Source of the DNA: an uncultured Alphaproteobacteria bacterium
Lineage (GTDB): Bacteria > Pseudomonadota > Alphaproteobacteria > Rhodobacterales > Rhodobacteraceae
NCBI GenBank assembly: GCA_902537235.1
Contig: CACBAO010000003.1
Coordinates: 1 to 64,000 of the forward strand
DNA length: 64,000 nt
Direction: 5' to 3'
The position numbers and the translations under genes are program-made. How positions within the stretch are numbered: the stretch's first letter is position 1; each line of letters starts with the position of its first letter. Positions 2,684 through 8,647 of this stretch are shown here, piece after piece. The notes beneath the pieces were generated by a model. It did no database searches and was not told the DNA's origin. It saw only the letters and a list, made by a program, of their open reading frames with translations.

Positions 2684-5233
2684 CTAATTTAAATTTCTTA
2701 GTCTTGATTGGGCAGCGGCAAGCCTAGCTATGGGTACTCTATATGGCGAACATGATATATATTCAAAACCAACAGATCTACAAAAACTAACGGATGAAGG
2801 GTCACCCCCATGCTCTCCGCACAATCCTGTTACTATCTTTGAATTTGTATTTCTGGCTCTTTGAACTGCTATTTTGAGCAATTCACCGACTCCTTCAACG
2901 TCGATAGTTTTGAAAGGATCACTGCTAAAAAGCTCTTTTTCTATATACTCTTTCATAAATCTATTAGAGTCATCTCTACTCAAGCCGTAAGTCATTTGAG
3001 TTAGGTCATTGGTCCCAAAACTCAAAAAATCGCATGATTGCGCTATATCACCAGCTCTCAACGCAGCTCTTGGGGTTTCCACCATTACCCCTAACTTATA
3101 TTTAAGATCTACAGAATTATCTTTATTTAGTTGTGAGAAAACCTTTCTAATCCTGTCCCTCACCAAATCAACTTCTTTATTAGCAGAAATTAATGGAATC
3201 ATAATCTCGGGATTTACCACAACTTTGTATTTCCTAAAAACCTCAATCGCCGCAAGAAAAATAGCTTGCACCTGCATATCATATATCTCAGGAACCATAA
3301 CACCGAGCCTTACGCCTCTAGTACCCAACATTGGGTTGAATTCAGATAGGTCTTTTATTCGATCCGCTAATTGTTGTTCCGTTATTGCCATTAGCTTCGC
3401 CGTTCTCTGAATTTCTTGCTGTGAATTTGGAAGAAACTCGTGCAGTGGTGGATCTAAAAGTCTTATCGTTACAGGAAGGCTCGACATTTCTTTAAAAAGT
3501 TCAATAAAATCTTCTTTTTGTATTGGCAGGAGCCTTTCAATTATTGAACCTCGTTCACTATCGCTGTTAGTAAGTATCATTTGTCTAACAAGATTTATAC
3601 GATTGGAATCACTAAACATGTGCTCCGTTCTACATAAACCGATGCCATCTACTTCATAAAACAAAGCCACTTTAGCTTCTTCTACCGTATCTGCGTTAGC
3701 TCTTATTTGAATATCACAAAACTCATCAGCCCATTGCAGAAGAGTACTGAATGTACTGGTGGTCTCGGGTGGCCTCAATTTTACTTTTTCTAGATAGATA
3801 GCACCTGTAGAACCATCAATCGTGATTTCATCACCCTCGGAGATTACATTGCCATCTTCTAGTACAAGAATTTTCTCTTGTTCCTTAAATACCACATTTC
3901 TTGCTCCTACGATGCATGGTATTCCCATGCCCCTAGCTATAACGGCGGCATGGCTCGTCATACCTCCCTTAACAGTTAGTACACCTTTAGATAAAGACAT
4001 GGCATTAATGTCATCAGATATTGTTTCACTTTTAATTAATATTGTGTCGGTTTCAGTTGAGTTATATTCAATAACTTTATTAGTTGACATAGCCACTCTG
4101 CCAGAAGCAGCCCCAGGGCTTGCTGGCACTCCCCAAAGAGCGGCCCTCAGTTTTATGTCTTCCGAGACCGATGGATGAAGGAAAATATCTAAATATTCTG
4201 GGTTTATGAGCAAAAGACCATCTTCTTTTTCTATTATCTTTTGCTGAACTGACGAAACAACAAACTCAATAAACTTCTTTTGAGGTAGTGCCACTTCCTT
4301 TAAACTGATCAAAAATAATATATCCCTGTCCAACAAAAAACTTACCTCTAATGGTGATTTAACTTTATTAGTCAAACTCCTAATTAAATAGCGTAATGAG
4401 TTAAATTTAAGTAATTTGTTTATCTCTTCTTCACTGACCGGGCTAAAAGAAGACTTTTTATTACTGTTATCTAATCTCATGCATTGGTAGCTCGATTTCC
4501 CTGTTTTACTATCAAAATTCTTAACCTTAAAATTTTCCAGTGGCTTTTCTTCAACACCATAGTGCATTTCTTGAAGAACTATTGGAATTAACTCGCCTCT
4601 CTTCCTACCACTTACCTCCCGTAATATTTTCTGAGTAGGACTAATCCATCCCTTATAAATTGAATTTATTACTTCTATTAATTGCTCTGAAATACTTGTT
4701 GGGAATTGAGACCCTGTTTCCATAGAGATTAATTGCTTAATTCTATTTATTTTTTCGAGACACCTTTCCTCAAAAACTGTTTCTAGGCTTTTTGAATATT
4801 CAAATAGACTTCGAAGTTCTACACTGTTTTCAAGATCTAGGTTATATACACTCAAAGAAAACATTTTGAGAAAGCTTAAGTAAATATCGTACGCTTTTTT
4901 TATCCCGACCTTTATTTTAATGATATCATAACTTTGATCGTTAAGCCCAATATAGAGAAAAGGCTCATTTTTTGTGGAAAGGTCAATAACCGGACTTGGC
5001 CTTATCGCAAGTAATTTATTCTTAAAGTGTGAAATGACTTCAGCCGGAACGTATTTTTTCTCAAAGATTTCTTTAACGAGTTCACCGGAAAGAAATACAG
5101 TGTCAGGAACAGGAAACTGCCACTTTTTAGCCAAACTGATATTGCACGCCTTGTGCCCAAACTGTTCGATTTTTTCTTGATCGTCTGGTATCTCGTTGAA
5201 CAAATATCTTGAGGTTAAGTTCATGTCACTCAT
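2684..5233 (-). CDS. PPDK-like PEP-utilising enzyme with degenerate ATP-binding half
   Basis: The 849-residue protein is homologous along its length to pyruvate, phosphate dikinase. The swivelling phosphohistidine domain is intact (GGMTSHAAVIARG, His428). The PEP/pyruvate barrel is also intact: GIGLCRTEHMF near 530-540, RLLDPPLHEF, MLGTRGVRLG, VMVETPRAA, FGTNDLTQ, and the catalytic Cys near 805 in GLCGEHGGD. The N-terminal ATP-grasp half is eroded. The usual GGKGxNL reads FGHKACNI, and the segment that should read DIEF...LQTRNGKRT reads LEVSF...LISLKEVAL (about 295-315), losing the nucleotide-contacting Gln and Arg. It overlaps glyS by ATGA. I recall Rhodobacterales carrying a 'putative PEP-binding protein' here. 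It may not be a genuine ATP-dependent dikinase. A different phosphodonor or acceptor, or a regulatory role, is possible. Confidence 0.85.
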   Translation of the reverse strand: MSDMNLTSRYLFNEIPDDQEKIEQFGHKACNISLAKKWQFPVPDTVFLSGELVKEIFEKKYVPAEVISHFKNKLLAIRPSPVIDLSTKNEPFLYIGLNDQSYDIIKIKVGIKKAYDIYLSFLKMFSLSVYNLDLENSVELRSLFEYSKSLETVFEERCLEKINRIKQLISMETGSQFPTSISEQLIEVINSIYKGWISPTQKILREVSGRKRGELIPIVLQEMHYGVEEKPLENFKVKNFDSKTGKSSYQCMRLDNSNKKSSFSPVSEEEINKLLKFNSLRYLIRSLTNKVKSPLEVSFLLDRDILFLISLKEVALPQKKFIEFVVSSVQQKIIEKEDGLLLINPEYLDIFLHPSVSEDIKLRAALWGVPASPGAASGRVAMSTNKVIEYNSTETDTILIKSETISDDINAMSLSKGVLTVKGGMTSHAAVIARGMGIPCIVGARNVVFKEQEKILVLEDGNVISEGDEITIDGSTGAIYLEKVKLRPPETTSTFSTLLQWADEFCDIQIRANADTVEEAKVALFYEVDGIGLCRTEHMFSDSNRINLVRQMILTNSDSERGSIIERLLPIQKEDFIELFKEMSSLPVTIRLLDPPLHEFLPNSQQEIQRTAKLMAITEQQLADRIKDLSEFNPMLGTRGVRLGVMVPEIYDMQVQAIFLAAIEVFRKYKVVVNPEIMIPLISANKEVDLVRDRIRKVFSQLNKDNSVDLKYKLGVMVETPRAALRAGDIAQSCDFLSFGTNDLTQMTYGLSRDDSNRFMKEYIEKELFSSDPFKTIDVEGVGELLKIAVQRARNTNSKIVTGLCGEHGGDPSSVSFCRSVGFEYISCSPYRVPIARLAAAQSRLRNLN

Positions 5234-7287
5234 TTTTTGTCAAATTCCGAAAAAACTACAACACTATGCGTGGTTTCGCTGATTTGACTCAAAAAATAGT
5301 ATCGTAAATTTTGTAGCTCTTTATCCTTACAATTAACCTGAACATTATCAAGGAACTGATTTACAGGATCTATCATAGACCCTAGTACCAATAAAGCCTT
5401 CTTAAAATCTTTGTCTTGTAAACTCTCCTCAACCTGTTCTTTGATTGACGTCAGATGTTTATATAATGTTTTATCCTCCTCAGTTGCGCGCTCTTGAGAG
5501 AATTTTTTTTTAAAACCTACGAACTCTTTATTAGAACTTAGCAAATTAGAAACCCTCTTATATACTGCTAAAAACCGTATCCCTGATTCAGAAGAAATGA
5601 ATTCCGTTACCTCAGCTATCACCTGTGGTAACATGGGCAAAAAATCCAACTTACATTGCTTGACTACCGCCTCTACTACCTTTTTTTGATAATTTTTTTC
5701 TGTCAGGTAATTTATAATTCTTTCTTTTAAAAACAGCTGTAGATCAGATATGTCGAAATCAACTTGTGTTAAATGAATTAAATAATCCATATCGACATCT
5801 AACTTGTTTTCCAATATAATTCTTATTATCCCGAGAGATGCCCTCCTTAAAGCAAACGGGTCTTTATTTCCAGTGGGCCTAATACCAATCTTCCAAAGGC
5901 AGGTTAAATAATCAATTTTATCACTAAGTGCCAGTACGATTGAAAGTGGTTGGTTGGGAACAACGTCATTTGAACCAACTGGTAGGTAATGATCTTTAAT
6001 TGCGTCAGAGACCAATTTTTCGTAACCCTCAACTTCTGCATAATGAGCCCCCATTATACCCTGCAAAGAAGGAAACTCAGATACGAGATTCGAAACGAGA
6101 TCAGCCTTAATAAGTATTGCGGCTTTTTTTACATCTTCCTTATCTAAATCAAATTTTCTGGCAAGCAATACAGCAATTTTTACTATTCTCTCCACTCTAT
6201 CATATTGAGAACCAAACTTTTCATGAAACCTCACGCTTTTTAACTTATCGTTCCAGGACCTCATTCCATTAATTTTCACTAGATTTAGATCATTTTGATA
6301 AAAGAAAATCGCATCTCTTAATCTCGAATTTAAAACACGCATGTTACCGTAGAGAATTGTTTTTTGCTCATCATAAGTTATAAGGTCAGCAATCACCAAA
6401 AATCCTTCAACCTTTCCGTTAGCATTACTTCTGAGAGAAAGGAACTTTTGGTGCTCTCTCATAGACGTGATTATCACTTCTTCTGGTATCGAAAGCAGTT
6501 CTTTAGGGATCTCGCCCAATATAGGAACCGGAAACTCTGTTAAGCCTACAATTTCGTCTAAAAGTTTATCATCCTCTACTAGGTAAAATCCTCTTGCTTC
6601 AGCCTGCTTCTTTCCGTCTTCCAAAACTCTTTTTTTTCGATCTGAAGGTTGAAGAATAACTTTACCCTTAAGCATCTTTTCACGGTAATCGTCAATTGAT
6701 TCAAACTCGAAAAACTCTGGATGCATTACTTGATGGGCTCTGGTTACAATATCTGACTCAATATCTCTAACAGTCAGTTGCACCCTTTCTCGGGTCTTAT
6801 TTTGAAAAAGGACAGCCATTATGCCCCGTAGCGGTCTAACCCATCTCAGCGAATAGTTGTCTCCCCAGTACATTGATTTTGGCCAATTGAACTCTTGAAT
6901 AATCTCTGTAAAAATCCGGGATAATATTTTTGACAAGGATTGCGCATTTACCTTTATGGAATAGAAATAAAAATCACCTTTTTCTGTTTTTTTCTCTTGT
7001 AATTCACTTCTAGTAATCTTATTTTTTTTCAAAAATCCTTCTACTGCAATTTCAGGTGCCCCTAACCTGGGACCACGGATCTCTTTTATGTTCTCATTAA
7101 CTTTAGTTGATATGTTTTCTAGAATTATACCTAGTCTCATTGGTGTAACAAAAGGCATCATTCTCTGAACTATCAGACCATTTTCACCAACTTTCTTCAA
7201 AGTTAAACTTTCAAGTTGACGCATTGCGGCCGTTTGCATTTTTGCAGGTATCTCTTCAGAGATTAATTCCAATATAAAATCGTTCAA
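5230..7287 (-). CDS. glyS: Glycine-tRNA ligase beta subunit
   Basis: The product matches the tetrameric (alpha2beta2) bacterial glycyl-tRNA synthetase beta chain. It begins with the characteristic ELISEEIPAKMQ, and continues through MREHQKFLSL, FYQNDL, HYAEVEGYE, NKDPFALRRASLG and the C-terminal anticodon-binding helices. It charges tRNA-Gly together with GlyQ. I place the start at TTG 7287, two bases after the stop of the small membrane gene, because this yields MNDFILELISEEIP, the usual N-terminus (685 residues). A TTG at 7326 would add 13 atypical residues and overlap the upstream gene by 37 bases. It overlaps the PPDK-like gene by 4 bases. Confidence 0.96.
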   Translation of the reverse strand: MNDFILELISEEIPAKMQTAAMRQLESLTLKKVGENGLIVQRMMPFVTPMRLGIILENISTKVNENIKEIRGPRLGAPEIAVEGFLKKNKITRSELQEKKTEKGDFYFYSIKVNAQSLSKILSRIFTEIIQEFNWPKSMYWGDNYSLRWVRPLRGIMAVLFQNKTRERVQLTVRDIESDIVTRAHQVMHPEFFEFESIDDYREKMLKGKVILQPSDRKKRVLEDGKKQAEARGFYLVEDDKLLDEIVGLTEFPVPILGEIPKELLSIPEEVIITSMREHQKFLSLRSNANGKVEGFLVIADLITYDEQKTILYGNMRVLNSRLRDAIFFYQNDLNLVKINGMRSWNDKLKSVRFHEKFGSQYDRVERIVKIAVLLARKFDLDKEDVKKAAILIKADLVSNLVSEFPSLQGIMGAHYAEVEGYEKLVSDAIKDHYLPVGSNDVVPNQPLSIVLALSDKIDYLTCLWKIGIRPTGNKDPFALRRASLGIIRIILENKLDVDMDYLIHLTQVDFDISDLQLFLKERIINYLTEKNYQKKVVEAVVKQCKLDFLPMLPQVIAEVTEFISSESGIRFLAVYKRVSNLLSSNKEFVGFKKKFSQERATEEDKTLYKHLTSIKEQVEESLQDKDFKKALLVLGSMIDPVNQFLDNVQVNCKDKELQNLRYYFLSQISETTHSVVVFSEFDKK

Positions 7288-7289
7288 CT

Positions 7290-7733
7290 CTATTCTTTCA
7301 TATACTTGGTATTTAATTGTCTCCAACGATAACTTGTTCCATCCGGGTAAATAGCTATCACATTGTCGATACCGTCAAACTCTTCTTTTTTTAATAAAAA
7401 AGCAGTTGCTATACCATCCGCCAAATCTTTTGTTATACTTTCAGCATTAAAACACTTGAACCAAAAAGGTGCTGTCAGGGGTGTCGGTTTCTTGTATTTA
7501 GGAAGATCAATATCATCCAACTTATTTACAACGAAGCATTCTCTCAACTTTAAACCTGAACTTTCAGAGTCTATTCCTCGATAATTTGAAATCTCATACC
7601 TCTTATTTCCAAACAAAATATTTTGCTTATCATCTATTGAGTCATAATAGGCATAATTTTGAAAGTAGAACAACGCAACGGTGAAAATGACCACGCTACC
7701 TAAAAATAACACAATAAAACGTCTCCCGTTCAT
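7290..7733 (-). CDS. Small membrane-anchored protein between glyQ and glyS (DUF6446-like)
   Basis: The 147-residue protein has one N-terminal hydrophobic segment (about residues 5-25), then a tract beginning YAYYD and a hydrophilic domain with FKCFN and YPDGTSYRWRQLN near the end. It is most likely anchored in the inner membrane facing the periplasm. Alphaproteobacteria of the Rhodobacterales carry a conserved protein of this size and start (short TM, then Y-x-Y-D) exactly between glyQ and glyS; I associate it with DUF6446 but cannot verify the number. The start ATG overlaps the glyQ stop by one base (TAATG), and its stop is two bases before glyS, so the three genes are coupled. Function is unknown. 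Confidence 0.8.
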   Translation of the reverse strand: MNGRRFIVLFLGSVVIFTVALFYFQNYAYYDSIDDKQNILFGNKRYEISNYRGIDSESSGLKLRECFVVNKLDDIDLPKYKKPTPLTAPFWFKCFNAESITKDLADGIATAFLLKKEEFDGIDNVIAIYPDGTSYRWRQLNTKYMKE

Positions 7734-8647
7734 TATACTCTCGATGAAACTTCGGCTATGTAAGAGTCAGCACACAACTTTGCCAATGTTCTTACTCTGC
7801 CAATATATACCTGTCTTTGAGCAATGGAGATTACACCCCTAGAGTCAAGTATATTAAATAAATGTGAAGCTTTTATGCACTGATCATATGCAGGTAGCAC
7901 AAGCTTATTTTTTTTATCTGAAGATTTTCTTTTTAGGTCCCCCATTTCTAGTATTTCTTTACACATTTTTTCTGCGTCATCAAAATGACGGAAAATAACT
8001 TCCGTGTTTGCTTCACGAAAGTTCCATTCACTATACTGCTTTTCAGCCTCCAAAAAAATATCTGAATATCTTAATGGTCTTTGACTATTTGGAGAGTTAT
8101 AGGGTAAGTCCATCACAGCGTCACACTCTAAAATAAACATTGCAAGTCTCTCAAGCCCATAAGTAATCTCTCCCGTGATTGGTTTGCAATCATGCCCGCC
8201 TACCTGTTGGAAGTAAGTGAATTGACTAATCTCCATACCGTCACACCACACCTCCCAACCAAGTCCCCATGCACCAAGAGTAGGGCTTTCCCAGTCGTCT
8301 TCTACAAATCTGATGTCGTGAACCTGGTGATCTATACCCAATAGGCGTAAGCTTTCCAAATACATTTCTTTCAATGTGGAGGGGGACGGCTTCATAACAA
8401 CTTGAAACTGATAATAGTGTTGCAGTCGATTTGGACTGTCTCCATAGCGGCCATCGGATGGTCGCCTGCAAGGTTGTACATAAGCGGCTGACCAATGATC
8501 TGGTCCTAAACTCCTTAGAGTTGTTGCTGGATGGAAAGTTCCTGCTCCCACCTCAAGGTCGTAAGGCTGGAGTATCACACAACCCTTACTGGACCAAAAA
8601 TTCTGCAGCAATAAGATGATTTGTTGAAAACACTCTGGCTTTTGCAT
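7733..8647 (-). CDS. glyQ: Glycine-tRNA ligase alpha subunit
   Basis: The 304-residue protein is the catalytic alpha chain of bacterial alpha2beta2 glycyl-tRNA synthetase. It contains the class II aminoacylation core: [35 protein letters not shown] (motif 2 region), the VVMKPSP segment, [18 protein letters not shown], and [24 protein letters not shown] with the motif 3 arginine. The length matches the family. It leads a coupled minus-strand series glyQ - small membrane protein - glyS - PPDK-like - cell wall hydrolase. A 50-base AT-rich gap separates it from folE upstream. Confidence 0.97.

Follow-up and report, generated by a model that had tools for sequence, protein, structure and literature searches.

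The closest described systems to the protein reported here are PPDK, PEP synthase, PTS enzyme I and VadK of M. tuberculosis. The catalytic residues of PPDK are given here in C. symbiosum numbering; in the ATP-grasp half they are K22, R92, D321, E323, Q335 and R337. The K22A and R337A mutants are deposited in the PDB under titles that support a catalytic role of K22 and R337, and Ye and colleagues are said to have described the roles of D321, E323 and Q335 in 2001. PDRP is the regulator of PPDK and acts through T453. Lim and colleagues reportedly found in 2007 that the triple mutant R219E/E271R/S262D loses only the ATP partial reaction. In VadK, the ATP and His parts are present and the PEP barrel is missing. 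In the Clostridium R219E/E271R/S262D mutant, the His domain rests at the PEP domain and not near the ATP half (PMC5371819); the structure 2R82 is this mutant, and the changed letters are visible in the structure-sequence alignment. VadK (Rv1127c) has been described as a truncated, autophosphorylating PPDK descendant turned phosphohistidine regulator or histidine kinase (PMC13400623). The R. pomeroyi gene is annotated as ppdK (PMC4334477), and the genome-scale model of D. shibae is described as running PPDK in reverse in every state (PMC3789786). Literature searches found no description of ATP-site loss in this PPDK family.

The window, by which we mean the whole stretch of 64,000 nucleotides analysed, encodes on the minus strand an 849-aa PPDK-like protein (2684..5233; ATG at 5233, stop at 2686-2684). 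The gene belongs to a head-to-tail series on the minus strand, in the order glyQ (glycyl-tRNA synthetase alpha subunit, 7733..8647), a DUF6446 protein (7290..7733), glyS (glycyl-tRNA synthetase beta subunit, 5230..7326), the PPDK-like gene and, directly downstream, a SleB-like cell wall hydrolase (Hydrolase_2, PF07486; 1971..2681) that is mostly retained behind the PPDK-like gene across the family loci. Further along the same strand lies a 315-aa protein (990-1937), residues 26-130 of which match FolB (dihydroneopterin aldolase) and whose approximately 185 other residues are without a Pfam match above the cut-off; its homologue is found close to the glyQ-glyS-PPDK operon in most family loci.

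The PPDK-like protein consists of a remodelled ATP-grasp (nucleotide-binding) half (residues 1-340; 4214..5233, minus strand), in which the PPDK fold is kept and catalytic residues are lost, a swivelling phosphohistidine domain (about residues 361-485; PF00391; 3779..4153, minus) and a PEP/pyruvate-binding barrel (residues 490-849; PF02896; 2687..3766, minus), in which all tested catalytic residues are kept. Although PF00391 and PF02896 match, PF01326 (PPDK_N) gave no match at E<0.1, and the Pfam search found no PF05524 (PEP-utilisers_N, the HPr-binding domain) in the protein. The score against TIGR01828 (PPDK) is 736 bits, below the cut-off of 843, and that against TIGR01418 (PEP synthase) is 152.7 bits compared to a cut-off of 739.75. 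The solved structures nearest to the protein are PPDKs.

Alignment to the C. symbiosum enzyme shows that the ATP-grasp sextet (K22/R92/D321/E323/Q335/R337) reads KRESSK in the window protein. K28 (5150..5152, minus) occupies the position of K22, which is Arg in the family core, and R78 (5000..5002, minus) that of R92; both are retained. The other four positions hold E, S, S and K: E296-V-S298 (4340..4348, minus) stands in place of D321-x-E323, with the catalytic Glu lost, and S310-L-K312 (4298..4306, minus) in place of Q335-T-R337, both of which are lost. If the alignment slipped by two residues, E296 could fall at E323, with Q335 and R337 still lost. In the other two domains, T453, H455, R561, R617, E745, N768 and C831 are all kept: T426 aligns with the regulatory position T453, H428 (3950..3952, minus; within TSHAAVIARGMG) with the phosphorylated H455, and C805 (2819..2821, minus) with the catalytic C831. 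The first-pass annotation of this DNA had reported loss of the ATP-grasp hallmark residues next to an intact His428 and an intact Cys near 805, and the alignment bears out both statements. It had also reported that the GGKG loop reads FGHKA; this segment does sit on the GGKGA loop (GHKAC in the window protein), but the loop Lys, K28, is in place. Likewise, the proposed loss of ATP contacts applies to four of the six positions and not to K22 and R92, which are retained in the genus.

We then compared these positions across 146 aligned proteins. In all 75 non-family PPDKs, which come from Clostridia, archaeal bins, SAR11, sphingomonads, rhizobia, Geobacteraceae and other groups, the ATP-grasp half reads KRDEQR and the seven remaining positions THRRENC; one more partial sequence reads DEQR. 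Among the 70 PPDK homologues read from the Rhodobacteraceae-type family, the ATP-grasp catalytic residues are altered in 69; the exception, in the outlier genus represented by genome G095, is a canonical enzyme (KRDEQR, THRRENC). The family core reads RRQEDV and THRRENC, or close to it, whereas the basal eroded proteins read KRSEAR, KRREDQ, KRREDV or RRQEDM, and the genus of the window reads KRESGK or close to it. R92 is kept throughout, and E323 is kept in most core members and gone in the genus of the window. The residues of the His and PEP domains (T453, H455, R561, R617, E745, N768 and C831) are constant wherever covered, in canonical and family proteins alike, save for Ser at T453, the residue that PDRP phosphorylates, in three family members (L055, L061 and L095). 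Because the window-like state is shared by 14 other genomes of the genus, and a related state is found family-wide, the residue loss is not due to chance or to an assembly error. The family has well-studied genera, both marine and phototrophic, and those in which its protein was read include Roseovarius, Tritonibacter, Pelagimonas and Planktomarina; Dinoroseobacter, Phaeobacter and Ruegeria are inferred to belong to the same group from their family membership, not protein by protein.

At the level of genomes, a TIGR01828-level match was found in 146 of 150 family genomes (one per genus, at least 90% completeness requested, with the window's own genome included), with one match each except in G103, which has a second, partial match. 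The score is 1091 bits in G095 and 666-909 bits in the others, the eroded state of family genomes whose locus was not fetched being inferred from this HMM score only. Four family genomes that are 95-100% complete (G133, G139, G160 and G164) have no PPDK-level match, and the PPDK-like gene can therefore be lost. An HMM of the core N-half, searched against 289 alphaproteobacterial genomes, scored 562-594 bits in four core family genomes, against a maximum of 164 bits in genomes of other families.

The window gene is firmly placed as the direct positional orthologue of the glyS-linked alphaproteobacterial PPDK. In a tree of the His/PEP half, the eroded proteins form one clade (SH-aLRT 90), which is adjoined by the G095 PPDK (SH-aLRT 99) inside the alphaproteobacterial PPDKs, and the glyQ-glyS-ppdK arrangement is common around canonical PPDK (SAR11, Acidiphilium, sphingomonads, Geobacteraceae and Omnitrophota). 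Since canonical PPDK shares the locus, including in G095, where the order is glyQ-DUF6446-glyS-PPDK-SleB with the canonical enzyme in the same place, the eroded gene changed in place. The first-pass annotation had proposed that the gene may be a family-wide paralogue, had called its coupling to glyS suggestive, and had raised the question of a second, canonical ppdK. The gene is indeed family-wide, but it is present as a single copy at the ancestral locus, which rejects a paralogue, and no second PPDK copy was found in the window's genome (80.6% complete). The glycyl-tRNA synthetase link was rejected as a functional clue as well: the same linkage surrounds canonical PPDK in many groups, and it is inherited. 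In two family loci (L067 and L083, Marinovum and Pelagimonas) the gene is present but does not follow glyS immediately and codirectionally; the linkage is therefore dispensable. The DUF6446 gene between glyQ and glyS was seen in nearly all family loci read and in no non-family locus among those read; as the G095 locus, with its canonical PPDK, also has it, the insertion is older than the change in PPDK.

Taken together, these observations suggest, with somewhat better than even confidence, that the protein is a glyS-linked PPDK descendant that would have lost the partial reaction with ATP/Pi and retained that with PEP/pyruvate. Under this proposal, PEP would phosphorylate His428 (E-His + PEP <-> E-His-P + pyruvate), the protein would be phosphorylated according to the PEP:pyruvate ratio, and its remodelled N-half, which would have ceased to supply phosphate from ATP, would either receive the phosphohistidine for an acceptor or read the state out to a partner. 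Transfer of phosphate from PEP to an acceptor, as proposed in the first-pass annotation, would fit. The acceptor would not be HPr in the window's genus, because the PTS is absent there: neither the EI N-domain nor HPr was found in 21 of the 22 genus genomes, which excludes HPr as the candidate. The sole genus genome with PTS enzyme I and HPr genes, G011, has them on one contig (C2, L141-L143), either as a horizontal gain or as a foreign contig. PEP carboxykinase is present in 18 of the 22 genus genomes, and pyruvate kinase in 20 of 22 as well as in 150/150 family genomes, so that other enzymes serve the formation and use of PEP. Replacement of PPDK by PEP synthase was rejected, as PEP synthase is present in only 26 of 150 family genomes.

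One rival reading is that the protein still is a PPDK, with an ATP site rebuilt from other residues, in which case the full reaction would persist, if perhaps at a slow rate or with a different nucleotide or donor of phosphate; we consider this unlikely. Four of the six catalytic residues are changed, in the core as in the window, and the window's genus is also without E323 and the Asp. The docking residues, by which the His domain reaches the ATP site, are altered as well: R219 and E271 are present in 75/75 canonical PPDKs and in G095, whereas the core has Thr (26) or Ser (14) at R219 and Arg in 40/40 at E271. Arg also stands at E271 in those remaining eroded proteins from beyond the window's genus that cover this column. 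In the genus itself, R219 is replaced by Thr and E271 mostly by Phe; the window protein has T200 (4634..4636, minus) and M252 (4478..4480, minus), respectively. Furthermore, with a conserved column defined as at least 95% identical, 80 of the 116 canonical-invariant columns of the N-half are not kept in the core (36 kept; 26 in the window's genus). The fold itself speaks for a surviving PPDK. AlphaFold models of the window protein (mean pLDDT 84.8) and of a Roseovarius homologue (88.0), built on alignments of 33 and 24 sequences, both match PPDK over the full length, and the window model is predicted to have all three PPDK domains, with residues 7..847 aligned to 5JVL chains at TM 0.81-0.85 and Z scores of 53.8 to 2R82 and 51.7 to 5JVL. 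The ATP-grasp fold is thus intact in the model, and the beta hairpin of the catalytic residues is present without these residues.

The retained residues also set a limit on our main reading: the genus keeps K22 and R92 and most of the core keeps R92 and E323, so that nucleotide binding is conceivable, and the Asp at Q335 in the core could still hold Mg2+. PDRP (PF03618) is present in eight of the 150 family genomes, namely in G095 and in seven genomes whose protein is eroded (G022, G025, G036, G098, G114, G138 and G189), which are mostly among the top TIGR01828 scorers; only G114 among the eight has PEP synthase. The occurrence of PDRP in eroded lineages, most of which have no PEP synthase, counts in favour of a working PPDK, and more of the old chemistry may survive in these seven genomes. 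In the PDRP lineages, the phosphohistidine protein seems to have stayed under regulation after its ATP residues were lost, and this regulation seems to have been dropped later; PDRP is absent from all 22 genus genomes. Flux data point the other way: D. shibae and P. gallaeciensis, two roseobacters, formed no PEP from pyruvate on glucose in a 13C study despite the annotated gene (PMC2761930), and R. denitrificans showed a weak pyruvate-to-PEP flux (PMC2749216, 13C), with the caveat that these studies used conditions under which PPDK need not run and that the eroded state of the strains is assigned by family membership. On the features tested, the protein fails as a PPDK enzyme, and its orthology, with a shared locus and a place nested within the PPDK tree, holds.

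The new conservation in the N-half bears on another reading with a low probability, that of a PEP/pyruvate sensor or scaffold, in which the output would be conformational, by binding of a partner to the N-half, and no phosphate would be passed, His chemistry being possible. Of the 111 columns conserved in the core N-half, 59 have a letter that differs from the canonical one, and many of these are charged or aromatic; the genus has lost HPr and EI and yet keeps the PPDK-like protein. However, a protein that only binds would have no need of H455, T453, C831 and the PEP-site residues, all of which, as far as tested, are kept. The His/PEP half retains 139/153 canonical-invariant columns in the core and 136/153 in the genus. 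A PEP phosphatase or slow pyruvate-kinase bypass, in which the phosphohistidine would be hydrolysed to give pyruvate and Pi, is consistent with sequence support for the PEP partial reaction only; it is nevertheless highly improbable, as it would be wasteful and without obvious use next to the ubiquitous pyruvate kinase of the family, and it leaves the new N-half conservation unexplained.

Purifying selection acts over the whole protein and is looser in the N-half: in comparisons within the genus of the window, residues 1-360 have a dN/dS of 0.13-0.27 and the remainder one of 0.02-0.12, in agreement with the first-pass view of divergence under constraint in a full-length frame. Identity between the core and alphaproteobacterial PPDK is 0.27 in the N-half and 0.54 in the C-half, compared to 0.63 and 0.73 within the core and 0.64 and 0.65 within canonical alphaproteobacteria, and the core N-half is shorter than the canonical one by 36 residues, mostly in two loops. 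A relic under relaxed selection, with an N-half drifting to loss, is very hard to credit, for although the N-half evolves faster than the remainder and fewer conserved residues survive in the genus than in the core, the dN/dS of the N-half is low, the frame is open in every copy recovered from the genus, and N-half identity within the core is about equal to that within canonical alphaproteobacteria. A basic, nucleic-acid-binding N-half was rejected: its net charge is +7.5 in the genus and -9 in the core, and the basic N-half of the genus is probably an effect of an AT-rich, Lys-rich genome.

The gene labelled as the central-metabolism enzyme PPDK in this large family, whose members live in the sea and in soil, thus probably does a different job, overlooked by databases and metabolic models. 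More tentatively, and at rather less than an even chance, the proposed loss of the ATP reaction with retention of the PEP reaction may represent a family-wide phosphohistidine relay or sensor, driven by PEP and acting through the remodelled ATP-grasp half on a target other than HPr; this would be a third route of PEP phosphotransfer beside the PTS and PPDK/PEP synthase. Proposals for CO2 fixation draw on the ppdK of this family, as does the D. shibae model (PMC3789786), and if the ATP half is dead, these routes do not run as drawn; a dead ATP half would also fit the 13C studies in which strains with an annotated gene had no flux from pyruvate to PEP. With a graded series of states on the tree, and the canonical enzyme still present in one genus, the change of function is open to direct testing.

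Comparison to the known systems shows that canonical PPDK (EC 2.7.9.1, TIGR01828; C. symbiosum 1DIK/1KBL/2R82) shares with the window protein its domain plan, fold, catalytic His and Thr, PEP site and glyQ-glyS locus, and differs from it by D321, E323, Q335 and R337, lost in the window protein; in the family core, D321, Q335 and R337 are lost and K22 is replaced by Arg. The docking residues R219 and E271 are replaced in the family protein, and the N-half of the core and genus is about 40 aa shorter between anchors and 19-27% identical to that of alphaproteobacterial PPDK. The engineered C. symbiosum mutant shares its E271R change with the family core. PEP synthase (TIGR01418) has His and PEP domains of shared ancestry, the window protein being far below its cut-off. 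PTS enzyme I (PtsI/PtsP, TIGR01417) shares the PEP-dependent phosphorylation of a swivelling His domain and the same barrel fold, whereas the window protein has an ATP-grasp-derived N-half instead of PEP-utilisers_N, and in 21 of the 22 genus genomes no HPr partner was found for it. VadK is, like the window protein, a PPDK descendant that keeps part of the double reaction; the window protein does not combine an intact ATP-grasp half with the absence of a PEP domain, as a VadK-like kinase would, but is its mirror image, with the PEP barrel kept and the ATP residues gone.
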